A stretch of DNA of 51,438 nucleotides from Oligoflexia bacterium (lineage in GTDB: Bacteria; Bdellovibrionota; Bdellovibrionia; JABDDW01). Both the position numbers and the translations under genes were made by a program. Each line of letters begins with the position of its first letter. Within the stretch, counting starts at the first letter, position 1. The stretch lies in NCBI GenBank assembly GCA_020847095.1, contig JADLCR010000006.1:1-51438 (forward strand), read 5' to 3'. Under the pieces are notes generated by a model. The model worked only from the letters and a program-made list of their open reading frames with translations, was not told the DNA's origin and ran no database searches. Shown here piece by piece: positions 6,440 through 47,977 of the stretch.

Positions 6440-6451
6440 TTGTCTCAACTC

Positions 6452-6976: not shown

Positions 6977-7005
6977 GCGAATCTTCAGTCCTTGTTATGA
7001 CGAGG

Positions 7006-7034: not shown

Positions 7035-7042
7035 AAAGCACA

Positions 7043-7276: not shown

Positions 7277-7303
7277 ATCAGTCCAGATTTGTGAACGCCG
7301 CTT

Positions 7304-8938: not shown

Positions 8939-10323
8939 GGGTTGGTCCTCGATTTGCGGCTCCAAACCGGCTTTATGTAGAACATCGTGATTATACCTAT
9001 CACGATCGCCAATGAGCCTAGGTATTTTAATGGGCGTCCGGGATCATAATTGACTGAGAAAACTGAGATTGCGGGTTCGCCTCTTTCGTTCATTTCGTAG
9101 CTCGATTGATAAAACGTATAGCCACCATAATGAAGTGGTTCATTCATTGAAATAACTGTTTTTGGACCGCCCACGACGGTAACGCTTGATTCGTAAGAAG
9201 CCGGAAGGTTTGTGCCCCCGTACCGTTGAATCTTAAATTGATCGAGCTTGAGCTGGAAACCCAAACTGTAACGGCGAAGGGTATAGCTAACAAAATAGGT
9301 CGAATACTGGCCTTTAATTTCATGGGGTTGTCCCAACTCGAACCAAGATTCATTGCTCCCTACGCGAACCTTGATGGCCCGGGGGGCTAAGGTGTCGGTT
9401 ATGGGAGCCAAAAGATAACTCACGTCGGTTTGAGACCTGGGAATAAATTGTTCAAGTGATACTTGAAGGTTCATCCAGCCCGTATCGATTGTTTGTCCTG
9501 GTTTTATTTCCCCTGATTTAAGAGGTTTGGTTTGGCGCATCGAAAATACTGTGTAACGTAAGGTGGTCGGGTTTTTTGGATCCCATGAAAAAGCGAGATG
9601 GTTTGATGGAGCCGGTGGTATGGGTACGGGACCGGCGACAAAGCTTACCTGAGCGGGTCCTAAATCATAAAAGGCGGGAAGCTTTCCATCGAGTGTGAGC
9701 CACTCTTCAACCTTAACTTGATTATTGAATAGTTTAAATTTGAGGGCGGGGAGTGCGTTGTCTAGAGTTGAATTTTGAGTCTTCACTTGTCTTTGTGCTC
9801 GGGGGAGAAAGTCAACGACGTGAAGTTCATCTTTATCCACCAAGGGGAGAGAAAATGCCTTTCGGTTTAGGTTCAGACCCGCAAACTCAATGGGTTTTTG
9901 ATGAATCAGTGCAAAGGGCTTTCCATCGACATTTTGATAAACCACAAGTTCTGTGTCTTGAACCAAAACCGCATCGCCGGTTTCGCCAATGGCTAGCGGC
10001 AAGCTCCCATCAATGCCCCTTTGTTGGGTGATAAAAGATCCAATGATGAGAAGAATGATTCCCAGGTGGGTGATAGCAAATCCGGTGTGATGCCTTTTGA
10101 GCGGCATTCGATCAATGACCGCGCAGGCCAGATTCACGATTAAAGTGAACATTAATAGGGTTGTGGGCCAACCTTTGAAAATGAGTCTTTGAGCTTCGGG
10201 AGTCCCGTATCTCGACTCAATGATTGTTCCCCACGCAAAGACAAACGCCATCGCCAGGAGCAGCAGCACTGCCAGCTTAATAGACGAGCAAAAATCGAAA
10301 ATAGCGATGAGAAGGCGTTTCAT
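8935..10323 (-). CDS. resB: Cytochrome c biogenesis protein ResB/Ccs1
   Basis: The 462-residue protein has three N-terminal membrane helices (about residues 12-32, 53-72 and 82-101), a large extracytoplasmic domain and one C-terminal helix (LGSLAIVIGIITMFYI). This is the ResB/Ccs1 architecture. Segments such as FVFAWGTIIESRYGTPEAQ and HHTGFAITHLGIILLIIGSFI fit the family. ResB is the partner of CcsA in system II haem ligation. It is first in a two-gene operon, with its stop overlapping the ccsA start. A 19-base inverted repeat lies 40 bases upstream of the ATG. Confidence 0.92.
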   Translation of the reverse strand: MKRLLIAIFDFCSSIKLAVLLLLAMAFVFAWGTIIESRYGTPEAQRLIFKGWPTTLLMFTLIVNLACAVIDRMPLKRHHTGFAITHLGIILLIIGSFITQQRGIDGSLPLAIGETGDAVLVQDTELVVYQNVDGKPFALIHQKPIEFAGLNLNRKAFSLPLVDKDELHVVDFLPRAQRQVKTQNSTLDNALPALKFKLFNNQVKVEEWLTLDGKLPAFYDLGPAQVSFVAGPVPIPPAPSNHLAFSWDPKNPTTLRYTVFSMRQTKPLKSGEIKPGQTIDTGWMNLQVSLEQFIPRSQTDVSYLLAPITDTLAPRAIKVRVGSNESWFELGQPHEIKGQYSTYFVSYTLRRYSLGFQLKLDQFKIQRYGGTNLPASYESSVTVVGGPKTVISMNEPLHYGGYTFYQSSYEMNERGEPAISVFSVNYDPGRPLKYLGSLAIVIGIITMFYIKPVWSRKSRTNP

Positions 10324-32019: not shown

Positions 32020-33639
32020 ATGAAACTAATTTTGAGTCTCGCCATTCTCTTTAGCTTTCTTGGTTGCAGCGACGTAAAGCTTCAAAAGCGCCAAGAAGAA
32101 CTAGCGAATGTTCAAAGTGAGGGCACGTTTTGCACTCAATCGCCTTCCGTAACCACCGGAAAAACGAAATTCATGTTCGTTATTGATAAGTCGGGAAGTA
32201 ACGGAAGTACGGATCCAAATAATCTCAAGCGAGCTAAAAATCTTGAGAAGTTTTTTAACGGTCCTGATACTGCTCCTCGAAAACTCAATTCGGGAATTGA
32301 GTGGGGCTTTATCGAATTCTCAGGAGACACGGCAACAGCGTATATCAATGAAGGCGGAGATGGTCGAAAACCTATCTTTGTCGGCGTTCCTGATAATGAG
32401 GCCGCTATGAGCCAGGCATTGCAGAAGCTTCGAGGTCCTGACGGTGGCTCAACTCCTTACAAGGCTGCTCTCGCGCTAACAAAAAAAGCAATCCAAGATG
32501 ACGTGACAAAGCACCCAGGTGAAGCTTCAAGTTATGTTATCTTTTTTATGTCAGATGGAATGCCCACCGACTATGGCTTTGAAGGTCCCGCGGGCCCTGA
32601 AGCTTTTAGAGATGTTGATGAGCTTGTTAATATGCTCCCAGGGCAGATTACTTTTAGTACGGCCTACTACGGTCCCTTTGATCCCGAAGCGGCCGAAGGA
32701 CTTCGGATCATGGCAGAGCATGGTCACGGAAAATTTGTCGATACCAATCAAACCGATGACTTCACGATTGATGACTTATTGGTAGGAGGACCTAGGGCAG
32801 ATACGTATATCGTTGGAAAGCTCCTGGTGTTTAATATCAACTCAGCCATTTGTTTAGATAACTCGATCGGAACTGACAGCGATGGCGATGGACTTTGCGA
32901 TCTTGATGAAGAGCGCGTCACTGGAACAGATCCTAGAAAAAGATTTTCATTTAGCACAGGGTATAGCGATTACTTTCACTACATGGCGTTGCTCGCAAAA
33001 ACCGTGTTGCCTGTTTGTACCGATCGCAGCGACGAGGACTTTGATTTACTGACGGCTTGCGAAGAGTCTCTCATGTACAACAGTCGACCCTCAGGAACGA
33101 CGAAAAACAAGGCTGATCCAAAGAACCCAGATACGGATTTCGACGGCTTTATTGATGGCATCGAGTATTTCTTTTTGCACAACAAATCAGCGGCCCTTGA
33201 TAATTTGAATATCTTTAAGAGTTTTGACGGAGAATCCATCAATGCCGGTGAGCAAATTCATCAGCATCGAAATCCCCTGTATAACGATTCGCGACTCCCA
33301 ATCAGTGACCTCTACGATACCCGTGCTGACTTTGTCGGTTACAATGCTGTCGGCCAGAGCTGCTATCGGTTTAGGCAAGATTTCCTTAAAACATATCCAA
33401 CCAAAGCTGTGTCGCCAGAAAATAGTTTGGGATTTCATACGGCTCATAAAGATTATGAGAACGTCGTGCTTTTTTATTTCATTCAGGTGTTGGAGCGCGA
33501 TCCTGCAGGCCCGGGAATTTACGTGTTTAGTCATCAAAAGGTTACAGGGAATCCGTCAACAGCCAGGTCTTTAGGCCGGCAAAGCGGGCTGCAGATCAAT
33601 CAGGGGATCTTTACGAGTTATATAGTTCCCCAGCAGTAG
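32020..33639 (+). CDS. VWA-domain lipoprotein with calcium-type repeats
   Basis: The 539-residue protein has a lipobox (SFLGC) near residue 15. A von Willebrand A domain follows, with MIDAS-like start FVIDKSGS near residue 50 and the typical VIFFMSDGMPTD strand. Two Asp-rich stretches, DSDGDGLCDLDEERVTGTDP near residue 285 and DPKNPDTDFDGFIDGIEYF near residue 365, look like thrombospondin type 3 calcium repeats. The MIDAS pattern is DxSGS, so metal binding is likely. I chose the ATG at 32020, with GGGG 6 bases upstream. Adhesion or protein binding at the cell surface is inferred. Confidence 0.82.
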   Translation: MKLILSLAILFSFLGCSDVKLQKRQEELANVQSEGTFCTQSPSVTTGKTKFMFVIDKSGSNGSTDPNNLKRAKNLEKFFNGPDTAPRKLNSGIEWGFIEFSGDTATAYINEGGDGRKPIFVGVPDNEAAMSQALQKLRGPDGGSTPYKAALALTKKAIQDDVTKHPGEASSYVIFFMSDGMPTDYGFEGPAGPEAFRDVDELVNMLPGQITFSTAYYGPFDPEAAEGLRIMAEHGHGKFVDTNQTDDFTIDDLLVGGPRADTYIVGKLLVFNINSAICLDNSIGTDSDGDGLCDLDEERVTGTDPRKRFSFSTGYSDYFHYMALLAKTVLPVCTDRSDEDFDLLTACEESLMYNSRPSGTTKNKADPKNPDTDFDGFIDGIEYFFLHNKSAALDNLNIFKSFDGESINAGEQIHQHRNPLYNDSRLPISDLYDTRADFVGYNAVGQSCYRFRQDFLKTYPTKAVSPENSLGFHTAHKDYENVVLFYFIQVLERDPAGPGIYVFSHQKVTGNPSTARSLGRQSGLQINQGIFTSYIVPQQ

Positions 33640-33657
33640 GACCGATAAAGAGAATAT

Positions 33658-33909
33658 ATGAAACGCGAAATCATTTTGGGAATTTCAATACTTCTAATGT
33701 TATTGGCTAGCCCCACAACATGGGCCCAAAAATCAAAAATCGATCTAGATGACATGATGATCAAAGGGGAGCTTCATAACGACGACCGGTTGATGATCTT
33801 ATCTCGCCAAAAAAACGAACTTAAAAACTATGTTAAGTTTAGGACAAACTTCCGAACCGAAATGCTCGAAGAACTCCCTTACCCTAAGCCTAAAACCAAG
33901 TTGGATTAG
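33658..33909 (+). CDS. Small exported protein, unknown function
   Basis: The 83-residue protein has a signal peptide ending TTWAQ. The mature part, about 60 residues, has IDLDDMMIKGEL followed by a charged segment SRQKNELKNYVKFRTNFR. It starts 18 bases after the VWA lipoprotein gene. I have a weak impression that similar short exported proteins accompany TolQ/ExbD-driven envelope systems in related bacteria, but cannot confirm it. Confidence 0.65.
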   Translation: MKREIILGISILLMLLASPTTWAQKSKIDLDDMMIKGELHNDDRLMILSRQKNELKNYVKFRTNFRTEMLEELPYPKPKTKLD

Positions 33910-34006: not shown

Positions 34007-34621
34007 ATGAAGAAATTTTCTTTGATTTTGGTGTTTTCGATCCTTTCAATAACGGCTCAAGCTCAGGTTCAACCTGCAGTTTCTGAAGATCCAAGCAGCG
34101 TCATAGCAATGGAAGTAAACCCATCATTTCTATCGGAATTTGCCAATGGAGCAATCGGAGCAGGTATTGAAGCTGTCAAAGAGGGTGTTAATTTCTTTGC
34201 GCTTGATCTTCCGGTGCTTGGGGCTTTTTCTGTTGAACTTGGTGTCATAAAAGTGGCTCAAAAATCAGGGAAACTTTCTTCAGAAGAGGCTTCGGGAATG
34301 ATGACTGAGATTCAGAAGCACCAATCGGAGTTTGAAGCAGAGTCGGCATTAGTTCAAAGTATGATTGATCAGGGAATTCTTAAAACGGTTGCACAAATTC
34401 CCGGGCACTTGTTTCAAGCGACCGTGATGAATATGGGCCGATGCTTTGAGAAAAACGGCCGGGCCTGTGGGGCAGGGGTTGCTAATTCTCTGCTCATCTT
34501 TTTGCCAGCTAAAGTCGTAAGAGGTAAGGTTAAAGCCTTCAATTCCGCACGAAAAGCCGCCAAAGCAGCTGAAGCAGCTCGCCGCACCGGGCGTCCGTTA
34601 AATTTAATCGAAGTTCCGTGA
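34007..34621 (+). CDS. Exported protein of unknown function
   Basis: The 204-residue protein has a cleavable signal peptide (ending ITAQAQ). Two Gly/Ala-rich hydrophobic segments (about residues 45-60 and 70-85) and a Lys/Ala-rich C-terminal helix (KAFNSARKAAKAAEAARRTG) follow. Two cysteines may form a disulfide. No family is recognised. It lies between the small exported protein and the second VWA lipoprotein. Confidence 0.65.
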   Translation: MKKFSLILVFSILSITAQAQVQPAVSEDPSSVIAMEVNPSFLSEFANGAIGAGIEAVKEGVNFFALDLPVLGAFSVELGVIKVAQKSGKLSSEEASGMMTEIQKHQSEFEAESALVQSMIDQGILKTVAQIPGHLFQATVMNMGRCFEKNGRACGAGVANSLLIFLPAKVVRGKVKAFNSARKAAKAAEAARRTGRPLNLIEVP

Positions 34622-34826: not shown

Positions 34827-35975
34827 ATGAAGGCACGATATTGGTTTTTTGTACTTACCGCAGGAGTTTTGATTCCGCTCTTACAGAACTGCGGACCCGT
34901 TCAGTTTGCCAACAAACAAAACGCCGGGATCAAATGCCCTGTGAATCAGCCTTGTATTGGACCGAGCGGTGAAAATACCGTTGAGCAACAGTTTAGTTTT
35001 AATGGTTCCAATAAGATCGATGTCTTGTTTATCGATGACAATTCCTCTTCCATGCGCCAGGAGCAAGAAAACTTAGGAACTCGATTTCAGAATTTTATTA
35101 GTCGACTCGCCGGAACCGATTGGCGCATTGGCGTTGTCAGCACTGACGTTTGTCCAGATTCTTCTGGGTTTAAGTGCACACCTTGGCTTGGTGGACTTGG
35201 TCAGTTCATGGGTCCCCTTGGCTCTAATCCTCGTTATGGGGGTGACCAGTACATCATCGGCCCTCAAACCCCTAACCCTGATACAAAGTTCTATCAAACG
35301 ATTCAAAGAGAGCTTGAGCAGGGAGCTCGAGATGAGCGGGGAATTAAAGCGATCAGCATGGCCATTGATCGTCGCGGTTCGGTCAGTCAGTTCTTTCGAT
35401 CCGATGCCCAACTTGCCGTCGTGATCTTATCTGATGAAGACGAACGTTCCCTTGGCGGTTATGAGAGAAACAGTAATGGTACTCGCGCCCAACCCTGTGC
35501 AACACCCAATGGGACTACGCAATGTGCACCGTTAGAAACCGAGGATCAACCAACCCATATTATTGGTAAAGCGACCGACCCTGGAACTTGGGGTTCGGCT
35601 AAGTCGTTCGTCGTTCATTCACTGATTATTCGCCCAGGAGACAACACTTGTCTTAATCAACAGATTTCCCAAGGCGGTGGAGCGTATGGCTACATCTATA
35701 AAGATGTGAGCGATCAAACTGGAGGCATTACCGGCTCGATTTGCGATTACGGTGATGGAGTATTCACCCAGACGTTACAAAACATCGGAGATGCCGTTAG
35801 AAATCAACCGAGCAATATTCTCACATTAGCCCATGTTCCCAAGGCGGCACCGACAGTTCGGTTTGAACCCGCTGGTCATGCCGTAAATTACACATGGACT
35901 CCGGGATCTAACCAAGTCGTTCTGGCCAGTGTCCCACCGACGCCAACGGTAGTTTCAGTCACTTATACTTATTGA
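34827..35975 (+). CDS. VWA-like lipoprotein
   Basis: The 382-residue protein has a lipobox LLQNC near residue 22. A von Willebrand A-like domain begins KIDVLFIDDNSSSM near residue 70, a MIDAS motif of the DxSxS class. Later strands such as LAVVILSDEDERS support the fold. The C-terminal about 60 residues look beta-rich. A GAGGAG ribosome site lies 8 bases before the ATG. The stop directly abuts the stop of the convergent ExbD gene, with no base between them. Confidence 0.82.
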   Translation: MKARYWFFVLTAGVLIPLLQNCGPVQFANKQNAGIKCPVNQPCIGPSGENTVEQQFSFNGSNKIDVLFIDDNSSSMRQEQENLGTRFQNFISRLAGTDWRIGVVSTDVCPDSSGFKCTPWLGGLGQFMGPLGSNPRYGGDQYIIGPQTPNPDTKFYQTIQRELEQGARDERGIKAISMAIDRRGSVSQFFRSDAQLAVVILSDEDERSLGGYERNSNGTRAQPCATPNGTTQCAPLETEDQPTHIIGKATDPGTWGSAKSFVVHSLIIRPGDNTCLNQQISQGGGAYGYIYKDVSDQTGGITGSICDYGDGVFTQTLQNIGDAVRNQPSNILTLAHVPKAAPTVRFEPAGHAVNYTWTPGSNQVVLASVPPTPTVVSVTYTY

Positions 35976-36569
35976 TTACTCTTCAGTTGGAGCGGGAGGC
36001 TGCGGTTCGCCTCCACCGGTACCGTTTACGGCGAAGTTGATATTCGTCCAACCTTCACTTATGCAAGTTTGCATGACGCGCTTGATGTAAACGAGCGGTG
36101 TTTTTTCGTCGGCTTGAATGTTGATCTTTCCTTTAAATGGCTGATTGGGATGAATAGTTTCTTCGATAATTCGAACCTGCTTTAGGGCGGCGGCAAGTCG
36201 AGGCAGATTTTGATCGTTCTCTGTAATCGTCATTGGATTTTCCCCAACTTTTTCAGCTTCGAAAATAACTGAAGTGCCCACGATACTGATCAAAGGGGCG
36301 CTCTCAAGTGCTTTGCCATGAGAAGCGTCAGGGAGTTTGAGGTCTTTTTGAATAAAAAATACTTCGCCCGTTGCGGAGAAGTTCATGAGCAAGAATATAA
36401 TCAAGATCGTGAACATGTCGATCATACTGACTAAAGGTAAATCGGCAATGACACTTTTCTTATGCTCACCTTTGACATGACCACGGGTCTTCTTGAGATC
36501 GTACTTTGGACGAATATGATACCCGGGCTTAACAACTCCAAAATGTTTAGTGCCGGTTGCGCCGCCCAT
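35976..36569 (-). CDS. ExbD/TolR-family motor protein (AglQ/AglS-like)
   Basis: The 197-residue protein has one membrane helix (about residues 46-66) with a conserved Asp (Asp51 in SMIDMFTILIIFLL), as in proton-driven ExbD/TolR/MotB motors. A periplasmic domain follows. The charged cytoplasmic N-terminus of about 40 residues is longer than usual. It lies 12 bases after the first ExbD-like gene. In Myxococcus, AglQ and AglS are two such proteins that pair with AglR in the gliding motor; which of the two this is cannot be said. Confidence 0.9.
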   Translation of the reverse strand: MGGATGTKHFGVVKPGYHIRPKYDLKKTRGHVKGEHKKSVIADLPLVSMIDMFTILIIFLLMNFSATGEVFFIQKDLKLPDASHGKALESAPLISIVGTSVIFEAEKVGENPMTITENDQNLPRLAAALKQVRIIEETIHPNQPFKGKINIQADEKTPLVYIKRVMQTCISEGWTNINFAVNGTGGGEPQPPAPTEE

Positions 36570-36581
36570 TGATTGCTCCGA

Positions 36582-37037
36582 TTAGTTGGTGTTCACGCCA
36601 ACATCTTCAAACTTGTTTTCAACTAAGGTATCCATAAGTTTTATGAGTTGTTTGTAAGGTGCTTGTGAATCCGTGTGGAGAACGATGTCTTGCCGGTCGG
36701 GGTATTTGGACTTCCACTCGGTGAGCACATTGATAAGGGCCGCATAATCAGGTTCCCCAGCCACATGGGCAATCTTTGTAGATTTCTTTCCTTCTTGGGC
36801 GAGCATATGATCAAGCAGCAGCGAAAGGCTTAGGTCAACTCGGTTGGGATCCGGAGGAGCTGGGCTTTCTGAACTTGTCGTAGAAGCTGAGTTGGTGCTT
36901 AACGAAGACAACTGCTGCCAAACCGCGGTCATTAACAAAAAGCAAATTAAAGTTGAGAGCAAGTCAATGAACGGAACGAGATTTAATTCTACGTTTACGT
37001 TTCGCTTACCACCACCACCTAACCCAGATGCGCCCAT
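36582..37037 (-). CDS. ExbD/TolR-family motor protein (AglQ/AglS-like)
   Basis: The 151-residue protein starts with a Gly-rich cytoplasmic tail and has a single helix containing the proton-carrying Asp (Asp25 in PFIDLLSTLICFLL). The periplasmic part includes a Ser/Thr-rich linker and a TolR-like domain (DRQDIVLHTDSQAPYKQLIKLMDTL). It starts 5 bases after the TolQ-like gene. Two ExbD paralogues with one TolQ is the arrangement of the Agl gliding motor. Confidence 0.9.
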   Translation of the reverse strand: MGASGLGGGGKRNVNVELNLVPFIDLLSTLICFLLMTAVWQQLSSLSTNSASTTSSESPAPPDPNRVDLSLSLLLDHMLAQEGKKSTKIAHVAGEPDYAALINVLTEWKSKYPDRQDIVLHTDSQAPYKQLIKLMDTLVENKFEDVGVNTN

Positions 37038-37042
37038 TTATT

Positions 37043-37690
37043 TTACCTTCTTGCGAACTTTTCGCGATTAGCCAAAATGAAGTTTAAAGTCGCAACGGCC
37101 GCTTCGTGAATATCATCAATCGTTTCTTGACTGCGGCTTTGAATGAATCCGAATATTCCAAGCAGCGGAATGGCCACGCAAAGTCCAAACGCCGTACAGT
37201 TCATCGCCTCTGAAATGCTATTGGCAAGCAATGAAGCTTTTTCGGCAGGACTGACGCCGGCCACAGCTCCGAATGCCCCGATAAGACCGACAATGGTTCC
37301 GAGTAGCCCCAAGAGTGTAGCCATATTCGAAAGCATCGCTAACAATCCCGTACGTCTTTCGATCTTGGGAATCTCTCGCAGCGCCACGGCGTCCATGGCG
37401 GTTTGAACTTCTTCAGCGTCTTTTTGATTAGCCACCGCCATCAAACCCGCTTTGACAATTCTTGTTAACGGACTCGATGCCTGAGAGCAAACGGCAATGG
37501 CCCGTTCTAGATTTCCCTGGAGAATGTGCTGGTTGATCCGATTGAGAAAATCATCTTTCGCTACTGCTGCGGCGGATTGGATGTACATAAATCGTTCGGC
37601 AGCGATTGCAATGCCGAAAAGCGAACAGACGGCGATGGGGTACATGAAAAATCCGCCTTCGTGGAATTTTTCAGCAATGGTGTGAAGCAT
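37043..37690 (-). CDS. TolQ/ExbB/MotA-family motor protein (AglR-like)
   Basis: The protein is about 215 residues with three helices: one at the N-terminus (FFMYPIAVCSLFGIAIAAERF) and two in the C-terminal half, including TLLGLLGTIVGLIGAFGAVAG, which matches the TolQ/ExbB/MotA core. With the two ExbD proteins it should form a proton channel. I chose the ATG at 37690 because GGAGG lies 8 bases upstream; an in-frame ATG at 37726 has none. A 107-base gap with direct repeats separates it from the FHA gene, so the motor genes may have their own promoter. Confidence 0.91.
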   Translation of the reverse strand: MLHTIAEKFHEGGFFMYPIAVCSLFGIAIAAERFMYIQSAAAVAKDDFLNRINQHILQGNLERAIAVCSQASSPLTRIVKAGLMAVANQKDAEEVQTAMDAVALREIPKIERRTGLLAMLSNMATLLGLLGTIVGLIGAFGAVAGVSPAEKASLLANSISEAMNCTAFGLCVAIPLLGIFGFIQSRSQETIDDIHEAAVATLNFILANREKFARR

Positions 37691-37746
37691 GGTCGGATCC
37701 TCCGGAGGTGGTTGATTTTCAATCATTTTAAATGGTTGAAGGGATG

Positions 37747-37780
37747 AGGGACAAAATCTCTATGAGGGTAAGGGACAAAA
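37747..37780 (-). repeat. Two direct repeats of TTTTGTCCCT upstream of the motor genes
   Basis: On the coding strand TTTTGTCCCT occurs twice (37780-37771 and 37756-37747), 24 bases apart start to start, in the gap between the FHA gene and the TolQ-like gene. Two-turn spacing would put both on one face of the helix. They may be regulator sites; no promoter is clear beside them. Confidence 0.4.
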
Positions 37781-37797
37781 CTAGTCGTTAGGCTAGA

Positions 37798-39939
37798 TCA
37801 CATCCGTCCGAATGGAAATCCAATGCTTGGAACAGTGCTTTGGCCGTTGGCAGCGGCTGGAAATTTCATTGCGGCAAACACCTTCTTCACACACTCACCA
37901 AGTCCGTCTCCTTGATTAACCGTGCTGCGCTTGACTCCAACGGTTGCAACGCGACCGGCGGGGGTGATTTCCCATTCAAACTCCATGCGGCCTGCCAAGT
38001 TAGGGTTGAGCAAGAGGTTTTTCTCGTAACAGTGCTGAATGTCTTGGATATGTTGTTGAACCACGGCCATGACCTGAGCACGGGTGAGTCCCTCGGTCTT
38101 CGATGACGAAGAGGCGAGCTTTGGTTCGCCCACCACCGCACCAGCAACTCCGCGGGCTCCGGCCGTTCCCTTAAGGCCTTGAACTCCGTAGCCGGTTCCG
38201 GTGCCGTAACCCATGCCCTTTGTTTTGACCGAGCCAATGTTGCCGGCCGCCGCCAGTTTTCCTGACGACGATGGCAAGGCGCCGACGATTCCACCCGTAT
38301 TGATTTTTGTAGGAGCGCCGCCAGCGTTAGGGTTGATATTAATATTTGTAACGACGTTTGTTGGCGCACTGGCCGATACGGCACCAAGGGCCGCTAACGC
38401 ACCCAGAGCCTCGACCTTAACTGGCGGCGGCGCTTGCTTCACTGGATTCTTAACTTCCATTGGAAATTTATTTACCTTGGCGATGGCTTTTGGGGTGGTG
38501 ATCACTTTAGGAACCTCTTTGACGATTTGTTTAGGAGGTTCTTTCTTGGGCTGTTCCTTTTTTACGATCTTTTTAGGAGGTTCTTTCTTTTTAACAATTT
38601 CCTTCTTGGGCTCAGGTGTGGGAGCTGGGGTTGGAGCGGGTGTTGGTTTTGGCTTTTCAACCAGAAGGCGAGCAAATCTTTGGGGCACGTTTTTGAGTTT
38701 GGGCCCTTCTGGATCCTTCGGTGTGTTCATGAGCAGAATGCCGATGAGGCAAATGTGAAATAACGCCGACGTAACAAAGGTCTGACGAACGGCATCTTCC
38801 ATTTCGGCAAATTTAGAAATGGGAAGCGGCTTGCTCGTGGGAACATGACGCAAGTGAACCTTAAAGCCATGACCTAGCTCCACATGGACGACATCGTTCA
38901 CACTTGCCCGGAGAGAGTATCCTGTGGAATCAGGTTGAAGGGCTTTTGATGCGATCAAATCACCCATCGGAAAATCTTGAGTCTCGCGCGTGAGGCTTAC
39001 TTGAAAACCTTGCGGAACTGAGCACTGAATTTCTTCAAATCCAACTTTTCCCAAAGTCCAAGTTTCTCTGAAAGCTGGAATTCCTAAAGAAGCTTTTCCT
39101 TTTGGGCCAATGGAAATGGTTTGTGAATTTCGAAACTCCCGAACCTCGTACACTTGGTCATGCCAAGTGACAACGGCTTCAACTCGACGAGAGCGCGCGT
39201 GCCCGATGCCATGGTAATAGCCAACCATTTCATCGGAGAAATCTCGATGAATGATCGGAGTCGGGTGATGCTTACTGTGACCGTGACTATGCTGGACCGG
39301 TGATTCTTTCGCCGCTGCAGGTTCAACACTGAGAGGTTTGATCTGGCCAGAAGGTGCCGGTTTTGCCATGGCAGGCATGGGCTTAGAAGGCACCTTTGCC
39401 GGCGGTACTTGCTTTGCTGAGGGTTCGGTTTGGTCGTCTTTTGTTGAATCTTTAATACTTGGTGGTGGACTGTTGTCTACGGGTACCGTCTTCGCTACGT
39501 GAGAGGGCCTAACTGCAACAATGTGGGGCTCCGAATTAGTTGGGGCCTTTTTGGTGCCTGGCACGAGGGTTGGCGCCGTTTGTTCGGATTGAAGATTTAA
39601 TCCTTTCGGAGCTGGGCTCACTTCTGCAAATACTTTGATACTGCCCACATAAAACTCACACTCTTCAGTAAAATCATGCTCGGGTGTGCGTTTACCGCCA
39701 ACGCGAATTCCGTTGCTACTCTTGAGATCTTGAATGCGCCACTGACCAGGCTGAGTTTCGAAAAGTTGGCAGTGTTGTCTTGAAATGAAGTCAAACTCGA
39801 GTGGAACCTCACACTTCGGAGAGCGCCCAAAATGAATGGGATAGTGAGAAAAAACTTTCTCAAATATCAGCTGTCCGTTGTGGTAAACGGTAATGCGCAC
39901 AGGCTGACTGAGTTTTTTGCGCTCTGACAAGACCAACAC
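37798..39939 (-). CDS. gltG: FHA-domain, transmembrane, TonB-like protein (GltG-like)
   Basis: This protein of about 713 residues has an N-terminal FHA domain (GRSPKCEVPL, SRQHC and SSNGIRVGGKR, about residues 30-85) that should bind phosphothreonine. A Pro/Lys-rich linker and a second domain follow, then a membrane helix near residue 390 (SALFHICLIGILLM). A long Pro/Lys repeat (PTPAPTPAPTPEPKK) suits spanning the periplasm. The C-terminal AgmX/TonB-like domain starts HIQDIQHCYEKNLLLNP. This layout is that of Myxococcus GltG. The start is non-ATG: GTG at 39939 or a nearby TTG; AAGGGG lies close upstream. Confidence 0.85.
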   Translation of the reverse strand: MLVLSERKKLSQPVRITVYHNGQLIFEKVFSHYPIHFGRSPKCEVPLEFDFISRQHCQLFETQPGQWRIQDLKSSNGIRVGGKRTPEHDFTEECEFYVGSIKVFAEVSPAPKGLNLQSEQTAPTLVPGTKKAPTNSEPHIVAVRPSHVAKTVPVDNSPPPSIKDSTKDDQTEPSAKQVPPAKVPSKPMPAMAKPAPSGQIKPLSVEPAAAKESPVQHSHGHSKHHPTPIIHRDFSDEMVGYYHGIGHARSRRVEAVVTWHDQVYEVREFRNSQTISIGPKGKASLGIPAFRETWTLGKVGFEEIQCSVPQGFQVSLTRETQDFPMGDLIASKALQPDSTGYSLRASVNDVVHVELGHGFKVHLRHVPTSKPLPISKFAEMEDAVRQTFVTSALFHICLIGILLMNTPKDPEGPKLKNVPQRFARLLVEKPKPTPAPTPAPTPEPKKEIVKKKEPPKKIVKKEQPKKEPPKQIVKEVPKVITTPKAIAKVNKFPMEVKNPVKQAPPPVKVEALGALAALGAVSASAPTNVVTNININPNAGGAPTKINTGGIVGALPSSSGKLAAAGNIGSVKTKGMGYGTGTGYGVQGLKGTAGARGVAGAVVGEPKLASSSSKTEGLTRAQVMAVVQQHIQDIQHCYEKNLLLNPNLAGRMEFEWEITPAGRVATVGVKRSTVNQGDGLGECVKKVFAAMKFPAAANGQSTVPSIGFPFGRM

Positions 39940-39998
39940 CCCTTGTTTTACTAGTCACTCTTCGGCAAGTCCGTGATTTGAATTGAGAAATTTGAGAC

Positions 39999-42900
39999 TT
40001 AAAGCGATGAAATCCAAGTATGCAGGACCCCAGACGGGCGTCCTGATGCTTTAGCTTTTGCTTTCATTGGGCCTAGCTTACGACCAAACCCAAATTCTTT
40101 ATAAAGAGCGGCAATTCCCCATAAGGCCAAGGGCTCTCGACTGTTGTGCGAAAGGGCCACTTTAAAAGACTGATGGGCAGATTCAAGATCATTCATGAAC
40201 ATGAAGACTTGGCCAACAAGAGCCTCGGCTTTAGCCCAGTCTGGTTTAATTTCGAGAATGCGATTTAACACCACGCGAGCTAGCGGATAGTCTTGGTTCT
40301 GAAGATACGCCTGAACCAGCTGCATCAGCAAATCGACATTTCGAGGACTGTCGTAAAGTTTTGCTCTCAAAGATTTAATGCTCGGTGAATCTCCGCCGCC
40401 CTCTCGCGAATAAGTTCTTTCTTCAGTCGCTTCGTCAATTTCTTCCGCTCCTTGGGATTGGCATCCTCGAACAAAGCGCGTAAACACTTCAAATTTTTCC
40501 GCATTGTCGAGACAGGCTTTATAATAAGCAGAGGCCTTAGTGTTAAACCCCTGAGCTTGCTGTCCAATGAGCTGACGGTACTGTTGCTGTTGCGCTTGAT
40601 TGAGTCCGGCTGGCATCGCAGCTCCCGTAATAAACTGTCCAAACTCTGTATGAGCGCGACCAATTTGATAAAGGGCCGCGATAGTCCATCGGCCGTTACC
40701 AAAACTGATAACGCTGTTAAATTGTTGGGTGAGCTCATTGAGTTTAGCGCTTTTCAATTTCACAAGCTCCGCTTCATTTTGGCCCGACCCCAATCGAATG
40801 TTTTTGTATTCGTTCAGAGCTTGAGAGTTGATGAGATAGAGGGCGTGGGCGGCCATTTTCTTGTCTTCATAAGAGGATGCACCGGCTCGAGAAGCCTGAA
40901 ACAAATAACTCTTCGCTTGCTGAGTCTGCCCCTGGCGATAAAGGGCCACACCCAAAAGATAACTTGCCTCTAAACCCCCAGTTCCCTTTCCGGTCAACAC
41001 CTGGGCAACCTTACCCCACTCTTGGGCCTGTGCGTACTGTCGCGCCACGCGAACGGGGTCGCCCAAATCTCGGTAATTATCGGCGGCGGCCTGAGTATCA
41101 CCTAGAAGCTCACGCATGGTGGCCGCATTTTTCAGCAAGGCGGGGCTATTTGGATCTTTCGGGTACTTTCTAGCAAACATCTCGAAGTACTGAGCAGCGC
41201 GACGGTAATCGGCGGTATTGATAGCCATTTGCCCCATGGCGCCGACAACTTCTTGGGCATATTTGGAGTCAGAAAAGCGGGTGATCAATTGTTCGCCCAC
41301 TGAATAAGCTTCAGGATCCTTTTTAGCCTTCATCGAGACGAACGCTTCGTAAAGGGCCTGATCGCCCAGGGCTGAGCCTTTGTATTTGTCAGCAAACTTC
41401 AATAAATTTTTAGCATAATCGCGACTTTTTGGGTCACCAGCCACGTCTTGAACTTTTCTATACTCCGCTTGCCGAATGATCTCTTGAACATCTTGTTTAA
41501 ATTGGGCGTTTCGAACTCTGGGGTTGGCAATAATTTGCTTACCCGCCTTGATGAGGCCGTCGTAATCTTCTCTTTGATTGAAAGAATCTAAAATCAAGTT
41601 TCCGGCGGTGGTGATTTCAGAATGATTCGGATACGCATTGATAAAATCAAAAAAGCCTTTCACTGCACGATCAAAAACCCTCTCGTCGTAATAAGTGCGC
41701 GCGATATTAAACGAAATCATCGCATTGGCCTTGTCACCTGGGTAACTTTTAATAAATTGCCGCCCCGAAGCTCTGAATCCCATTCTGGATTCTGCCAACT
41801 CAATTTTAGGGAGCTTATCTGGCTCTTTAAGGGCAAGTGCAAATGACTGAATGGCCGAATCCAAGACCTCTTTTTTCTTATTTCGCGCAAAAAGCTTCTC
41901 ATAATAGTATCCGGCGCGCGCGTGCTTCTTGATGGCAAAGTAACTTTCAGAAAGATTGAGCATGATGTCATTTGTAAATTTTGTGTTGGGGTAAAGGGAC
42001 AAATAATATTCATATGCTCTAATGGCAGCCAGATAAGCCGTTTCCTGTTTTGAGCTCTGGGCGAGTTTTTGAAGTCTTGTCGAAATATCTCTTAAATAAA
42101 CCTCATAGTTTTTTTGATGCTTTGTGACTTCCGCCGACGCAATATCAACCGAATGGCGCACTCTCAAAAGTGTGACAGCGAGTTCTTCGGGAAGATTTTC
42201 GAGTGGCCATTGTCGTTTTGATTTTCTCAGCACCTCGTAAAAGCGATCAATGTACTCAAGTCGGTATTCAAGAGAGTTGGTCAAGCTAATCATGCGGATA
42301 TATAGTGGAACGGTATCTTCAACTCTTTCTTTAAGCATGAGCCGCTTTGTCAGTTTGTCTAATACCTTCACTAGCGATTGCCGATTAGGGGACAGACTTT
42401 CGAAGTATTTGAGAGCATTGGCCCTAAATGGGTCGAGCTTTTTTTGCTCCGAGTACGGCCAGACCATGGCAATTAAAGCATCGCGACGGATGTCATTTTT
42501 TTTGTAAAAGTCCGGAAGATTATCGTTGGGAATCTTTGAATCGACAGTGATGACGTTCTCAAAGGCATCGAGAGCCTCTTTAAACTTTTCCATGTTAATA
42601 AGACACCAACCGAGTTTATATCGAGCTAGGCCCATAAATGGATTTTGGGGGCGATTTAAAATCTTTTGATAAACCTCGCGGGCAATTTCAGGATCCTTTT
42701 TTTGTTCCAGAAAGTAGTCTCCCAACACAAGCTGTGACTCTTCCCAGAATTGGGACTTATTGAACTCGGTTGTGAGCCGAATATAAGTTTTTACCATTTC
42801 TTCAAGAGCACCCATTTCACGGTACTCGTGAGCCATATAAAAGAGCGCTCGGTCTCTAAAATCTGCTTTAGGAAAAACTTCAAGAATGCGTTGGTAAACT

Positions 42901-43205
42901 TCTATGGCCTGTTTCTTGGATTTTCTCGCATCTGAAAAATCAAGTTCGTTAATTGGCGTGTTGGGTTCTTTCTTCCTTGTGATGGCGGCCTGATAGCGAC
43001 TTTTTTCGACGTAGAGCTCCGCCAAGACAAAATAAAGGTCAGGTAAAAACGTGACATCCCGCACATCCCGCATTTTTTGACGGGTGACTTCAACGGATTG
43101 ATTGATTTTGGATAGATCCGCTTGAAGTTGCTCAAGGGATTTTTCCTCCTGCCCCCAAGCACTCCAAGACAAACTCAAAATGAGGCAAACGATCAGGTTC
43201 TTCAT
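39999..43205 (-). CDS. Large exported TPR protein (GltD/GltE-like)
   Basis: The 1068-residue protein has a signal peptide ending SWSAWGQ and many tetratricopeptide repeats along most of its length, with spacing of about 34-37 residues. Recognisable ones include ARYKLGWCLINMEKFKEALD, ARTYYDERVFDRAVKGFFDF and AAQYFEMFARKYPKDPNSPA; the last are near the C-terminus (NQDYPLARVVLNRILEIKPD). It is probably a periplasmic scaffold. Its ATG overlaps the stop of the upstream TPR gene (ATGA). Position in the locus fits GltD/AgmU. Confidence 0.85.
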   Translation of the reverse strand: MKNLIVCLILSLSWSAWGQEEKSLEQLQADLSKINQSVEVTRQKMRDVRDVTFLPDLYFVLAELYVEKSRYQAAITRKKEPNTPINELDFSDARKSKKQAIEVYQRILEVFPKADFRDRALFYMAHEYREMGALEEMVKTYIRLTTEFNKSQFWEESQLVLGDYFLEQKKDPEIAREVYQKILNRPQNPFMGLARYKLGWCLINMEKFKEALDAFENVITVDSKIPNDNLPDFYKKNDIRRDALIAMVWPYSEQKKLDPFRANALKYFESLSPNRQSLVKVLDKLTKRLMLKERVEDTVPLYIRMISLTNSLEYRLEYIDRFYEVLRKSKRQWPLENLPEELAVTLLRVRHSVDIASAEVTKHQKNYEVYLRDISTRLQKLAQSSKQETAYLAAIRAYEYYLSLYPNTKFTNDIMLNLSESYFAIKKHARAGYYYEKLFARNKKKEVLDSAIQSFALALKEPDKLPKIELAESRMGFRASGRQFIKSYPGDKANAMISFNIARTYYDERVFDRAVKGFFDFINAYPNHSEITTAGNLILDSFNQREDYDGLIKAGKQIIANPRVRNAQFKQDVQEIIRQAEYRKVQDVAGDPKSRDYAKNLLKFADKYKGSALGDQALYEAFVSMKAKKDPEAYSVGEQLITRFSDSKYAQEVVGAMGQMAINTADYRRAAQYFEMFARKYPKDPNSPALLKNAATMRELLGDTQAAADNYRDLGDPVRVARQYAQAQEWGKVAQVLTGKGTGGLEASYLLGVALYRQGQTQQAKSYLFQASRAGASSYEDKKMAAHALYLINSQALNEYKNIRLGSGQNEAELVKLKSAKLNELTQQFNSVISFGNGRWTIAALYQIGRAHTEFGQFITGAAMPAGLNQAQQQQYRQLIGQQAQGFNTKASAYYKACLDNAEKFEVFTRFVRGCQSQGAEEIDEATEERTYSREGGGDSPSIKSLRAKLYDSPRNVDLLMQLVQAYLQNQDYPLARVVLNRILEIKPDWAKAEALVGQVFMFMNDLESAHQSFKVALSHNSREPLALWGIAALYKEFGFGRKLGPMKAKAKASGRPSGVLHTWISSL

Positions 43206-44662
43206 TCAACCGGTCCGTCAAGTAAAGCGCACCGCGACTCAACAAAAACTTTGTAAGTTTCCATTTCATCCATCCAGTGCTCACCCGTGTTAGTCCAATA
43301 GATTTTCTCAAAGGTAAGATGAGGAATCTCTTCAACCCGATAGTTGAGCTGGGTGCCCGGTCTCGTGACTCTTAGGCTATCTAATCGCGTTTGGTAATCA
43401 AGAAAGTTGACTTGCTCCTGCCAGTCGATGAGTTGATTACCAACGTCCCTAGATTTTTTGATCATGAGATAATCAAGCCGCGCCAGGACCTCGCGAATTT
43501 TCGATTCGTATCGCTTTTTTATCTTGGGATAAAAAGCGTAGTCTTCCCAGCTATGATCTCCCAAGCGGTCCAATTCTTCGCGGAGACTATTAAGAAGCTC
43601 AGCCCATTTTTCAATTCGACGATCTAGGAGTGCCAGTCGCACGATAACCGGGTCTTTTCTAATGTCTTTTCGTTCGTACACCGATTTTATGGACTGACCA
43701 AATCGGATATTAACCTCTCGCGCGACATCCAAGGCGGCTTGGTAGTAGCAAAGTTCTTTGTAGATGACCATGCGTAGAATGTACGGCTCCGGTGTGCGGG
43801 AAGGCTCAAAAACAGGAGCTTCCATGGCGGCCAACAGTCCAAGGGCCTTGGCGTAATCTTTTTGATAATACTTGGCCCAAGCACGCTCAAGAAGAATCAT
43901 CCCCCGCTCGCGATCATTGAGCTTGACGGTTCTAAAGATTTTGTACGAACGGGTGTAATCGCCTTTTTCAAAAATGAGTCGAGCCATATTATGGGTCGAC
44001 GAATCTTTGATATCTTCTGGGGCCTTAGTGTCTTCAGCTAAACTTTGAAACTTTTCAATAGCAGAATCGACCCGGTTACGAGCGACTTCACCAAGAGCGG
44101 TGAGATAACGTAGCCGATAGTCCCAGTAAGACTGGGCCGTGATTTTCTTAAAATCATCGTCAGACCATTTTTTGAATCCGTGTATGAGATTAAACATTCC
44201 CTCTTGAAAGCTAACAAGATCCTGCAGCTCCGGCGGTAGGGGGCCAAACTCAAGATCGTTGATGAGTTCGCCAATGAAATAATCATCATCGATAGGGGCA
44301 AAACGGAGATTGGATTCTAACCCCTTAAGAGCTTCGATGGCCAGTTCTGTTCCGACACGTGTTTTCATGAGGTCGCCAAAGATGGTGCTGGAAGCAAAGA
44401 AAAACCCTTGCTTCTGCAAGATCTGAGCAAATCCTAGCCACGCCTCTCCATTTTCAAGTGAATCCTTCTTTGTCAGCTCATGTTGTTCTTGGGCTAGTGA
44501 AAGTCCTTTGTCGTAGTTCTTGTCTCGAATAGCGTCTTCGATAGTTCTCCAAAACGTTATGTTGACGGGCTTGTAGGAAACCAGAAGCTGTCCGCTGGAC
44601 TTATCCCACGTAAACAGCAGACTCAGGCAAAATAAAATTAATCCCACGCGCTTAATCGTCAA
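43202..44662 (-). CDS. Exported TPR-like protein (GltC-like)
   Basis: The protein is about 486 residues. It starts with a signal-type helix (RVGLILFCLSLLFTWDKSSG) and has tetratricopeptide-type helical repeats, such as STIFGDLMKTRVGTELAIEALKG and MARLIFEKGDYTRSYKIFRTV. No ATG is near the signal sequence; TTG at 44662, with AAGAGG 6 bases upstream, or GTG at 44647 are the likely starts. The TTG start would overlap the upstream gene by 11 bases. The position between the beta-barrel pair and the large TPR protein matches GltC. Confidence 0.82.
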   Translation of the reverse strand: MTIKRVGLILFCLSLLFTWDKSSGQLLVSYKPVNITFWRTIEDAIRDKNYDKGLSLAQEQHELTKKDSLENGEAWLGFAQILQKQGFFFASSTIFGDLMKTRVGTELAIEALKGLESNLRFAPIDDDYFIGELINDLEFGPLPPELQDLVSFQEGMFNLIHGFKKWSDDDFKKITAQSYWDYRLRYLTALGEVARNRVDSAIEKFQSLAEDTKAPEDIKDSSTHNMARLIFEKGDYTRSYKIFRTVKLNDRERGMILLERAWAKYYQKDYAKALGLLAAMEAPVFEPSRTPEPYILRMVIYKELCYYQAALDVAREVNIRFGQSIKSVYERKDIRKDPVIVRLALLDRRIEKWAELLNSLREELDRLGDHSWEDYAFYPKIKKRYESKIREVLARLDYLMIKKSRDVGNQLIDWQEQVNFLDYQTRLDSLRVTRPGTQLNYRVEEIPHLTFEKIYWTNTGEHWMDEMETYKVFVESRCALLDGPVE

Positions 44663-45308
44663 ACTTAACCTCTTGAGCTTCTTCTTCAAAACCTGAAATT
44701 TTGAAGCTAAGTCCAACCACTAACGCCAAATTATTTCTAATTTCAGTTGCTAAGACTGTGTAATGGCGAATGTCTAGTTTCAAAGACATCACTTCTCCCA
44801 AGTAGTATTTAAAAATCAGACCTAAATCGATTCCGGGTTTTACTCCCGACTTGTAGGCCATCGCTCCGCCACCGGCTATGAAAGCAAGTTGTGAGTGCAC
44901 GATCTTTGAATTAAACAACAGATTCTTCGTATAAAAAGGCGTGAACTGAAGGTTGGTCGTAGCGTAATACTGAAGTTGTTCAAACTGAGCATCTTGGGCA
45001 GCAAAATTTTCTGTTAAGTCGCGTCGTAATCCTGAAACAAGATTAATAGAGTAGTTAGCGTTGACGATTTCCCAGGCGGTGAAGTCGCTAAACGCGTGAG
45101 TATAAACAAGACCCACGCCGATGAATTTAGTATATGGATCTAAAGGCAAGTAACCGCCCTGAATGGTGATTTCATCGCCACTGCTGTAATTACGATTTTG
45201 AAGCGTTGACATTTTGGGAATGGCATAAAGATCTGCGTTTGTCTGTGCGAACACATGGTAACTCATCAACAACAAAATCGCACCAGCCGCCCAATTACTC
45301 TTCTTCAC
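44652..45308 (-). CDS. Outer-membrane beta-barrel protein (GltB-like)
   Basis: The protein is about 218 residues, with a signal peptide ending SYHVFAQ. The mature part is a run of amphipathic strands typical of small outer-membrane beta-barrels. It shares blocks with the upstream gene product: TIQGGYLPLDPYTKFIGVG, YTHAFSDFTAWEIVNANY and QLQYYATTNLQFTPFYTKNLLF. I chose a GTG at 45308, with GGGAG 6 bases upstream; the only earlier start is a TTG deep inside the upstream gene. It overlaps that gene by 14 bases. The pair resembles GltA/GltB. Confidence 0.85.
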   Translation of the reverse strand: MKKSNWAAGAILLLMSYHVFAQTNADLYAIPKMSTLQNRNYSSGDEITIQGGYLPLDPYTKFIGVGLVYTHAFSDFTAWEIVNANYSINLVSGLRRDLTENFAAQDAQFEQLQYYATTNLQFTPFYTKNLLFNSKIVHSQLAFIAGGGAMAYKSGVKPGIDLGLIFKYYLGEVMSLKLDIRHYTVLATEIRNNLALVVGLSFKISGFEEEAQEVKFDD

Positions 45309-45963
45309 TCTCAACTCCCGTGGTTTGAGCTGGAGGGTCACCAAAGTTGTAAGCAAACCCGAGAGCTACAACCAGGTTGTTACGCGAATTTCCGCCAAAA
45401 TAAATATAGTCTCTGATGTCAAATTTTATAGAAGTGTGCGCGCTCGTCACGAATCGGAAAAAGGCCCCAATATCGGCGCAGTTTACATTTCCAGTATCAA
45501 ATTTTGACAAGCCCATTCCGGCTACTAAGGATAGCTCTCCATAGACAATCGTGTCTCCGAACAGCAAATGCTTGGAATAAAAGGGCGTGAATACCACATT
45601 ACTTGTTCCGAAATAGTTGATGGTATCGAACTTATCCTCGGAGGCCGCACCAAACCGATTTCCCAATTCTTGTTCAAGTCCGGTCGGGAGGCTTGCCAGA
45701 TAATAGCCATTGATGACTTCCCACCCGATGAAGTCACTGAAGTAATAGGTGTACGATCCTCCGACAGCGGCGTAGCGAACAAACGAGTCCAATGGAAGGT
45801 AACCGCCATAGATAGAGATTTCTTGCGACAAAAGATAGGGGCGCTTAGTGACTGCTATAATCTTGGGGATAAGGGGACCATCTTCTTCGGCTTTTGAATC
45901 ATTCGAGCCAAGAAGAAACACCACCACCATCCCTAGTAAACAAAGCCCGATCCGTGTGGCCAT
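45295..45963 (-). CDS. Outer-membrane beta-barrel protein (GltA-like)
   Basis: The 222-residue protein begins with a signal peptide ending LGSNDSKAEE. It has the same beta-barrel pattern as the following gene product: SIYGGYLPLDSFVRYAAVGG, YTYYFSDFIGWEVINGYYL and TSNVVFTPFYSKHLLFGD. They look like tandem paralogues of the myxobacterial-type outer-membrane beta-barrel family. It is the first gene of the Glt/Agl locus. No strong ribosome site precedes the ATG. Confidence 0.86.
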   Translation of the reverse strand: MATRIGLCLLGMVVVFLLGSNDSKAEEDGPLIPKIIAVTKRPYLLSQEISIYGGYLPLDSFVRYAAVGGSYTYYFSDFIGWEVINGYYLASLPTGLEQELGNRFGAASEDKFDTINYFGTSNVVFTPFYSKHLLFGDTIVYGELSLVAGMGLSKFDTGNVNCADIGAFFRFVTSAHTSIKFDIRDYIYFGGNSRNNLVVALGFAYNFGDPPAQTTGVESEEE

Positions 45964-46430: not shown

Positions 46431-47444
46431 TCAATTACTCCTCTCGCCGCAGCGATTAGAGGTAAAGTACTTGGCTAAGGCTGATCCACGCAAGCCCAGA
46501 CCCAATCCATGCATGAGTTTTACCACCGAAGCTTCTCGCGTCATATCTCCGGCCGACAAAGCGCCGTATTTCCGCACAGGTAGACTTGTTTCATAAACAT
46601 CTAAATCAATTCTACCGTGTGGGCACTGTGAAACAACCACCACGGGCTTTGAAAGCCGCTTGGCCAAAATAAGAGCCTCGGTCATGGTGCTATCTCGAGT
46701 AGGCACCGTACCTGAGCCATAGGCCTCAATGACAAGCCCATGGCATTGGGGCGATTCAATCACGGGGATGAGCATTTCCTTAGAAAGTCCCGGAAACACC
46801 TTCATGCTAAACACACGAGAATCGAAATCACAAAGCCAGCGAGGTCGACCCGGGCGAACTCGTTGTGACTTACCGAGAGATTGCCAAAACGGTTCGACTT
46901 CTACACCCATTTTGGCAAGCGGTGGAAAATTGAAGCTTTCGAATGCGACAAAATCACTTGCTGAAAATTTGGTCGACCGATTGGCTCTCAAAAGTTGATT
47001 TCCAAAGCATAAACTGACTTCAGGCGGTCCGTCGCACGCCAGGCTCACGGCATTAATGAGGTTTTCCGGACCATCAGTACGCAAATGGCCGAGAGGACGC
47101 TGACTCCCAGTGAAGATCACAGGTTTATTTGTTCTTCCCAATGCAAAACTGAATGCTGAAGCCGAATAAGCCATCGTATCCGTCCCGTGGGTGATCACAA
47201 ATCCGTCATAATCATCATACGATTCTTTCAATGATTTTAACCATCGAACCCAATGATGGGGAAGGACATTGGACGAATCTAACTGGGCAATGACTTGAGT
47301 TTTGACTCGAGCTAATTGGTTCAGCTCAGGAACAATTTCTATGAAGTGCCGCCCCGTTAAACCAGGTTTTAAGAATCGATTTCCGTTTGCGCTGATCATC
47401 CCGATGGTGCCGCCCGTATGAAGAATCAATATGCGCTTTTTCAT
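46431..47444 (-). CDS. ansA: Type I (cytoplasmic) L-asparaginase
   Basis: The 337-residue enzyme has both active-site threonine blocks: LHTGGTIGM near residue 10 and THGTDTMAYSASAFSFAL near residue 87. IEAYGSGTVP near residue 240 is typical of type I enzymes. No signal peptide is present, in line with the cytoplasmic form. It hydrolyses asparagine to aspartate and ammonia. The ATG overlaps the stop of the tyrosine recombinase gene as ATGA, an unusual pairing. Confidence 0.92.
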   Translation of the reverse strand: MKKRILILHTGGTIGMISANGNRFLKPGLTGRHFIEIVPELNQLARVKTQVIAQLDSSNVLPHHWVRWLKSLKESYDDYDGFVITHGTDTMAYSASAFSFALGRTNKPVIFTGSQRPLGHLRTDGPENLINAVSLACDGPPEVSLCFGNQLLRANRSTKFSASDFVAFESFNFPPLAKMGVEVEPFWQSLGKSQRVRPGRPRWLCDFDSRVFSMKVFPGLSKEMLIPVIESPQCHGLVIEAYGSGTVPTRDSTMTEALILAKRLSKPVVVVSQCPHGRIDLDVYETSLPVRKYGALSAGDMTREASVVKLMHGLGLGLRGSALAKYFTSNRCGERSN

Positions 47445-47977
47445 ATAATGAGTTTTCTCAGTTCGTTTTGAGAGTAAACATAGTCCGCGTAAATCATAGT
47501 ATTGGTGATGTTTCGATGACCAAGAGCAATTTGCACGAGCCGCAAATCCTTTGTTTTTTTATATAGGCGAATGGCGAACGTATGCCTGAGCGCGTGGAGT
47601 TTTTTAGGCACCGGGCGATAGGCAGTCCAAATATCTCGAAATCGATTGTAAGTGATGTCAAAGAGAAGTTCCGTGGGACTTTGAGTTCCCCATCGCAAAA
47701 GCCTCTCAAATAGCGAACGAGGCAGGGGAATTTCGCGATCAGAGCTGCCTTTTATCCCACGCACAAGAATCGTCTCGTCAAAGGCATTGATGTCTTGGCG
47801 TTTGAGGTTGAGGAGTTCCGTTGCTCGGGCGCCAGTCCTAAGGGCTAGCTCCAGTAGCAAGACATTACGTAGATCTTTGTTTTCGAATCGCTTGAGGGTT
47901 TGTTCGAGCAATTCTACTTCGGGGTCTAAAAGATATTTTGTTTTGTTTAATGCGTATCTCTGTGATGCAGTAGCCAC
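47441..47977 (-). CDS. Minimal tyrosine recombinase (catalytic domain only)
   Basis: The 178-residue protein consists of the catalytic domain of a phage-integrase-type recombinase. All catalytic residues are visible: Arg51 (GARATELL), Lys76 (GIKGSSD), His128 and Arg131 (HALRHTFA), His154 (LGHRN) and Tyr163 (MIYADY). It lacks the N-terminal core-binding domain of XerC/D or phage integrases and is about the size of FimB/FimE. The start is a GTG at 47977 without a ribosome site; no ATG is near. It is coupled to the asparaginase gene. No attachment sites or invertible repeats were recognised nearby. Confidence 0.85.
   Translation of the reverse strand: MATASQRYALNKTKYLLDPEVELLEQTLKRFENKDLRNVLLLELALRTGARATELLNLKRQDINAFDETILVRGIKGSSDREIPLPRSLFERLLRWGTQSPTELLFDITYNRFRDIWTAYRPVPKKLHALRHTFAIRLYKKTKDLRLVQIALGHRNITNTMIYADYVYSQNELRKLII

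Follow-up and report, generated by a model that had tools for sequence, protein, structure and literature searches.

The window, that is the whole stretch of 51,438 nucleotides analyzed here, is one entire contig (C6) of an Oligoflexia bacterium genome of 2.7 Mb in 112 contigs. Eight genes lie on its minus strand at 35976-45963, encoding two barrels, GltC-, GltD-, GltG- and AglR-like proteins and two ExbD-like proteins. Family searches of all eight proteins bore out the gene order and the kinds of protein that the original prediction had read in this segment; its coordinates were right for the eight genes but left outside the conserved companion genes at 32020-33909, which are included in the following list.

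45295-45963, minus strand: outer-membrane beta-barrel 1 (GltA/GltB type), with signal peptide (TIGR04565 OMP_myx_plus, 6.9e-20, 71.7 bits, cut-off 60)
44652-45356, minus strand: outer-membrane beta-barrel 2 (GltA/GltB type) (TIGR04565, 4.3e-22, 78.8 bits, cut-off 60)
43202-44716, minus strand: GltC-like periplasmic TPR protein (NF033756, 3.2e-12)
39999-43205, minus strand: GltD-like giant TPR protein of 1068 aa, with signal peptide (HHalign)
37798-39939, minus strand: GltG-like transducer (NF033760, NF033768, PF00498)
37043-37726, minus strand: AglR-like motor subunit of the TolQ/ExbB family (PF01618 MotA_ExbB/TolQ, 2.3e-27)
36582-37037, minus strand: AglQ-like ExbD/TolR subunit (PF02472, 5.4e-18)
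35976-36569, minus strand: AglS-like ExbD/TolR subunit (PF02472, 6.7e-14)
34827-35975, plus strand: MIDAS-family lipoprotein, Bd0875/Bd1483-like (NF052240, 1.8e-29; CglD, 2e-8)
33658-33909, plus strand: GltF/CglF-like small exported protein of 83 aa (profile, 7.1e-14; NF033764)
32020-33639, plus strand: vWA/MIDAS-TSP3 lipoprotein of 539 aa, candidate adhesin (PF13519, TSP3 repeat)

Where starts could be placed, the spacing between the eight genes is operon-like (-13, -3, 59, 71, 5 and 12 bases). The second barrel probably starts at a GTG near position 45308, which would give it the signal peptide VKKSNW...FAQ. Both barrels pass the TIGR04565 cut-off, a family match that does not separate GltA from GltB. 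Motor, transducer, scaffold and barrels, together with the vWA lipoprotein, are all contained within 14 kb. The same gene set, its order mostly kept, is carried by eight further genomes and repeated at most of 38 loci of the window type (hereafter W-type), a recurrence which indicates that the set did not come together by chance. The window also holds a respiratory cluster resembling Qrc/alternative complex III at 917-8965, with its QrcB- and QrcC-like parts fused into a single protein of 1018 aa, and at 34007-34621 an exported protein of 204 aa that belongs to no family and lacks homologues at those other W-type loci that were compared.

The AglR-like protein displays channel-type threonines in GLLGT (144) and NCTAFG (178), and membrane aspartates are present in the AglQ-like (PFID, D25) and AglS-like (SMID, D51) proteins; these are the residues that a functional proton channel should have, on the model of TolQR/ExbBD, and they are intact in this motor. 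In a tree of concatenated AglR, AglQ and AglS sequences (59 rows, 539 columns) the W-type motors formed one clade (14 rows, support 100/100), the C4-type, Bd0828-like motors a separate one (10 rows, 100/100), and a third comprised the stand-alone motors of Myxococcota, those of Anaeromyxobacter among them (17 rows, 80/85). Support for joining these clades was 96/86, alternatives for their relative order not being separated (AU p 0.42-0.47), and the tree of AglR only neither recovered nor rejected this three-clade grouping. The window motor thus does not group with the C4 (Bd0828-0838) clade in the concatenated tree, nor does it group with the TolQ/ExbB of its own genome in the AglR-only tree, where a branch supported at 100/99 sets all Glt-type motors apart from the latter, as expected from the earlier assignment of these proteins to the Glt/Agl type and not to ordinary Tol/Exb. 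Identity between the window AglR and the four other AglR proteins of its genome does not exceed 50%. At the sequence level, a W-type motor lineage of its own, distinct from both the Bd0828-0838 type and myxobacterial AglRQS, is fully supported; no description of this variant was found in the open-licence papers searched, and the lineage is apparently undescribed. When presence was called at E<=1e-60 across 144 genomes of the Bdellovibrionia class, the W-type motor was detected in 38 of them, belonging to 31 of 69 genera.

It could be argued that such a locus fulfils a Tol/Ton-like envelope role, in outer-membrane stability or in uptake via its barrels, with components of the Glt type, as its motor belongs to the TolQR/ExbBD family and its GltG carries a TonB-like tail. 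We regard this reading as very improbable, considering the 100/99 separation from the TolQ/ExbB of the genome, the presence of parts that are foreign to Tol/Ton systems (FHA domain, giant TPR protein, OMP_myx_plus barrels) and the patchy distribution among the 144 genomes, which speaks against a housekeeping role.

The GltG-like protein is matched over its full length (residues 11-710) by NF033760 with 6.1e-38 and 130.8 bits, under the equivalog cut-off of 650 bits, and its AgmX/PglI-type TonB-like C-terminal tail by NF033768 (75 bits, cut-off 40). It also has an FHA domain (PF00498, 8e-13) and, by hydropathy, one TM helix at about 386-407 followed by a Pro-rich linker. A TonB-type S-x3-H motif in this helix (SALFH in the window) is not conserved across W-type GltG and was therefore not used as evidence. 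In agreement with the predicted kinship to Glt/Agl families, HHalign comparison of W-type with Bd0828-type profiles gave E values of 4e-66 for GltD (residues 62-926 aligned to 131-1036 of the C4-type protein), 6e-25 for GltC (99.6%) and 6e-44 for GltG, and the protein adjoining GltG in Anaeromyxobacter was matched by both GltD profiles (7e-98 and, for the W-type one, 4e-61).

The C-terminal ~130 aa of W-type GltD (about 938-1068) matched GltE at 96% (1.8e-9), versus only 32% for C4-type GltD. When a profile of this tail was searched against ORFs from twelve control loci and from four stretches of Anaeromyxobacter, its top matches were the four C4-type GltE proteins, followed by a giant TPR protein and the Anaeromyxobacter GltE. 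The tail is present in each of the 29 W-type GltD proteins whose C-terminus was available (eight of which built the profile), and no separate gltE was found at any of the 38 W-type loci; at C4-type and Anaeromyxobacter loci gltE comes directly after gltD. The tail, a probable GltE TPR core, is devoid of the GltE lipid anchor. We infer that GltE, which the original prediction left unmentioned, was probably retained as a fusion to the C-terminus of W-type GltD, the similarity being partly of a generic TPR kind; such a fusion predicts a contact between GltD and GltE where they are separate proteins, Myxococcus included.

GltF had been considered absent from the window. However, a profile made with Bdellovibrionota GltF proteins, including three W-type members from other genomes and excluding that of the window, found the ORF at 33658-33909 with E=7.1e-14 in a search of its own genome. 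The encoded protein matched NF033764 (CglF) with 6.8e-7 and 29 bits, below the cut-off of 90; CglF and GltF are the same protein (PMC4488436). It is 28-65% identical to ORFs adjoining other W-type loci, and a GltF-like ORF adjoins the motor at 24 of the 38 (some contigs end too early). Profile match and conserved neighbourhood together place GltF in the window. No match to GltH, GltI or GltK was seen in those window proteins that were scanned with NCBIfam, and the search for GltJ over the whole genome gave nothing beyond the shared tail domain and pieces resembling GYF. In Myxococcus, GltH, GltI and GltK are essential and GltJ is part of the gliding set. The core of the Agl/Glt system, as reportedly defined by Luciano in 2011, is a group B composed of AglR/Q/S and GltC, D, E and G, with a group A that includes GltA/B, F and H-K.

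The vWA-TSP3 gene sits directly upstream of gltF, and its product combines a lipobox (LFSFLGC), a perfect MIDAS (DKSGS), a vWA domain and TSP3 repeats. The matches to PF13519 (1.5e-4) and to the TSP3 repeat are both below gathering scores, and those to CglD/MtsD are weak. Its AlphaFold model, of low overall confidence with a mean pLDDT of 63 and roughly 50-87 by block in the vWA part, matches the vWA folds of integrin-I, ANTXR, TRAP and SpaC in the PDB with E values down to 2e-8. Homologues adjoin gltF in G002, G006, G016 and other genomes, and in several other W-type genomes the gene does not adjoin the motor. Using a threshold of E<=1e-50 in the 144 genomes, we found a homologue in 25 of the 38 W-type genomes versus 1 of the 106 others (Fisher 2e-17, ignoring shared descent), a co-occurrence that spans 9 families; the 13 W-type genomes with no homologue at this threshold belong mainly to family f2. 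The vWA-TSP3 lipoprotein is thus co-inherited with the W-type motor. Both it and GltF might be mere neighbours of the motor, the outside partner being, for example, the barrels or another MIDAS lipoprotein, which would fit with the several W-type genomes lacking the vWA-TSP3 protein and with the numerous MIDAS proteins of these genomes. We find this unlikely, given that GltF is a known Glt part recurring at most of the loci and that the vWA protein co-occurs with the motor far more often than expected by chance, repeatedly across families. With GltF present, GltE probably fused and a surface lipoprotein added, the locus does not correspond to the minimal version of a gliding motor that had been proposed.

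The MIDAS lipoprotein gene at 34827-35975 was also considered as a conserved partner, being convergent with the motor operon, with its stop abutting the last stop of the operon, and scoring 103 bits with NF052240 (cut-off 700). Its linkage is not kept at other W-type loci and its best relatives elsewhere do not adjoin Glt loci; the vWA-TSP3 gene was therefore preferred, and an association of this MIDAS lipoprotein with the machine is only possible. The gliding machine of Myxococcus includes the vWA outer-membrane lipoproteins CglB and CglD (PMC4488436). A single cluster of B. bacteriovorus 109J contains aglR (Bd1481) and Bd1483, and insertions in either gene led to an identical defect in biofilm predation (PMC2277423). 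Bd1483 encodes a MIDAS lipoprotein, and prey invasion was unaffected when it was deleted (PMC11003981); on surfaces, the vWA gene bd3099 rises along with aglQ (bd1480) (PMC9140294). MIDAS lipoproteins also end other Glt-type loci of this genome or of Bdellovibrio (L027 10206-11198, L029 13465-14652, L044 7097-8158).

Five Glt/Agl loci are found in the genome of this predator-related bacterium, on contigs C4 (L026), C6 (the window), C27 (L027), C73 (L028) and C94 (L029). Anaeromyxobacter and G009, a complete genome of the genus Bdellovibrio (g10), provided the reference loci for comparison. G009 has four loci, one Bd0828-like, two C94-like and one C73-like, none of them W-type, at positions that may be HD100-like; its Bd0828-like locus (L041) shows the order A-B-C-D-E-F-G-R-Q-S and its C73-like locus has an adjoining MIDAS gene. 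The genus Bdellovibrio carries the W-type in only 2 of at least 24 genomes. A flanking trio of recombinase, asparaginase and CoA-binding genes is common to the window and G002, and in G001, of the same family, the trio is present with no Glt genes adjoining, which fits a loss of the W-type locus there. We tentatively suggest, as a possibility that falls somewhat short of an even chance, that the W-type represents a self-contained machine for gliding or attachment, equipped with a vWA-TSP3 adhesin that is dedicated to it and co-inherited, and that this machine was ancestral in Bdellovibrionia and has disappeared from most Bdellovibrio.

The tyrosine recombinase at 47441-47977 was examined as a switch of the operon and discarded, as its gene is near-universal in the class, occurs in single copy and is mostly unlinked. 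It has 178 aa and no N-terminal domain; 36 of 40 genomes encode it with an identity of >=53%, and in four genomes the gene is linked to a W-type locus. No convincing inverted repeats were seen around the motor operon. Several further arrangements were observed at the loci compared. In family f11 (L135-L138, L140) the W-type barrel-C-D block is inverted and a second TolQ/TolR-like pair is close, while at the W-type loci L038 and L051 about 3-6 kb of unrelated genes separate gltG from aglR. AglRQS genes also occur in a MAG labelled Euryarchaeota (L064), probably misbinned or mislabelled. GYF-domain-like proteins adjoin C4- and C73-type loci (L026 1599-2387, L044 6465-7085, L028 3-491); the one at the C4 locus matches part of GltJ (3e-6) and is possibly a split GltJ. 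Exported Ig/cadherin-looking lipoproteins, related by position and with no family match, are encoded in L027 (6788-7879) and L029 (10024-11463).

Taken together, we consider it probable that the locus encodes a complete, proton-driven, envelope-spanning Agl/Glt force machine that pulls a CglB/CglD-like adhesin for gliding or for attachment to surfaces or prey; the Agl/Glt type of the machine is well supported, while the coupling to the lipoprotein, the direction in which force acts and the biological task are inferred. Proton flow would drive AglR, with AglQ and AglS, as a stator-like motor in the inner membrane. GltG, with its FHA domain in the cytoplasm, one TM helix and a TonB-like tail in the periplasm, would relay the force outwards, first to a TPR scaffold made up of GltC, the putative GltD-GltE fusion and GltF in the periplasm, and through it to the two outer-membrane barrels. 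The load outside would most likely be the vWA-TSP3 lipoprotein, in the role of CglB/CglD of Myxococcus, so that the motor might move a metal-dependent adhesin along the surface, resulting in gliding or in a moving attachment to surfaces or prey. A different use of the same machinery is surface transport instead of motility, lipoproteins or polysaccharide being moved over the cell with the vWA protein as cargo and not as foot. Agl-Nfs indeed moves polymer on Myxococcus spores with the same motor (PMC3858216), the GltJ of the gliding set is missing here, and four more such machines in the genome suggest that tasks are probably divided among them; nevertheless, no polysaccharide-export genes were recognized adjoining the locus in the window and the partner inherited along with the motor is a MIDAS protein with an adhesion-type fold, so we hold transport to be an improbable task. 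If the gliding or attachment machine with its dedicated adhesin is real, the W-type would supply a motor-plus-adhesin pair for the phylum, in which, according to a 2026 review, neither the motor and adhesin of gliding nor its force path has been identified (PMC13104615); its locus is a compact, testable candidate for such a pair.

With respect to known systems, HD100 has four agl/glt operons, Bd0412-0420, Bd0828-0838, Bd1473-1483 and Bd2368-2377 (PMC2797640, PMC3169522), so a contiguous set of motor and envelope genes was already known. The compaction that the original prediction had stressed against Myxococcus is therefore real but not special, the more so as outside Deltaproteobacteria the core also sits in one region, and the locus is ordinary in kind. 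Bd0828-Bd0838 (C4-type) shares with the W-type the single-locus order GltA/B-C-D-...-G-AglR-Q-S and has no GltH/I/J/K (PMC3169522); it differs in that gltE and gltF are genes of their own, placed between D and G, where the W-type appears to fuse E to D and has gltF and the vWA lipoprotein gene on the opposite strand, AglR identity being about 45-50%. The machine of Myxococcus and Anaeromyxobacter shares with the W-type homologues of GltA/B, C, D, E (probably fused here), F, G and AglR, Q and S, and has its myxobacterial parts in separate loci (the motor stands alone in L055, L057 and L060), whereas the W-type set is contiguous; unlike in Myxococcus, GltJ was not found in the genome and GltH/I/K were not seen among the window proteins scanned. 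CglB and CglD are surface parts of the Myxococcus machine, the W-type vWA protein being weakly similar to CglD. The Agl-Nfs spore-coat transporter of Myxococcus uses the same motor class with Glt paralogues, but no polymer-export genes were recognized adjoining the W-type locus in the neighbourhood comparison. The MIDAS adhesins Bd0875 and Bd1483, the latter within an agl operon, are vWA/MIDAS lipoproteins as well, although the W-type vWA-TSP3 protein is longer and of a different family. What distinguishes the W-type from known sets, as read from its sequences, is a separate motor lineage, a predicted GltD-GltE fusion and a co-inherited vWA-TSP3 lipoprotein.
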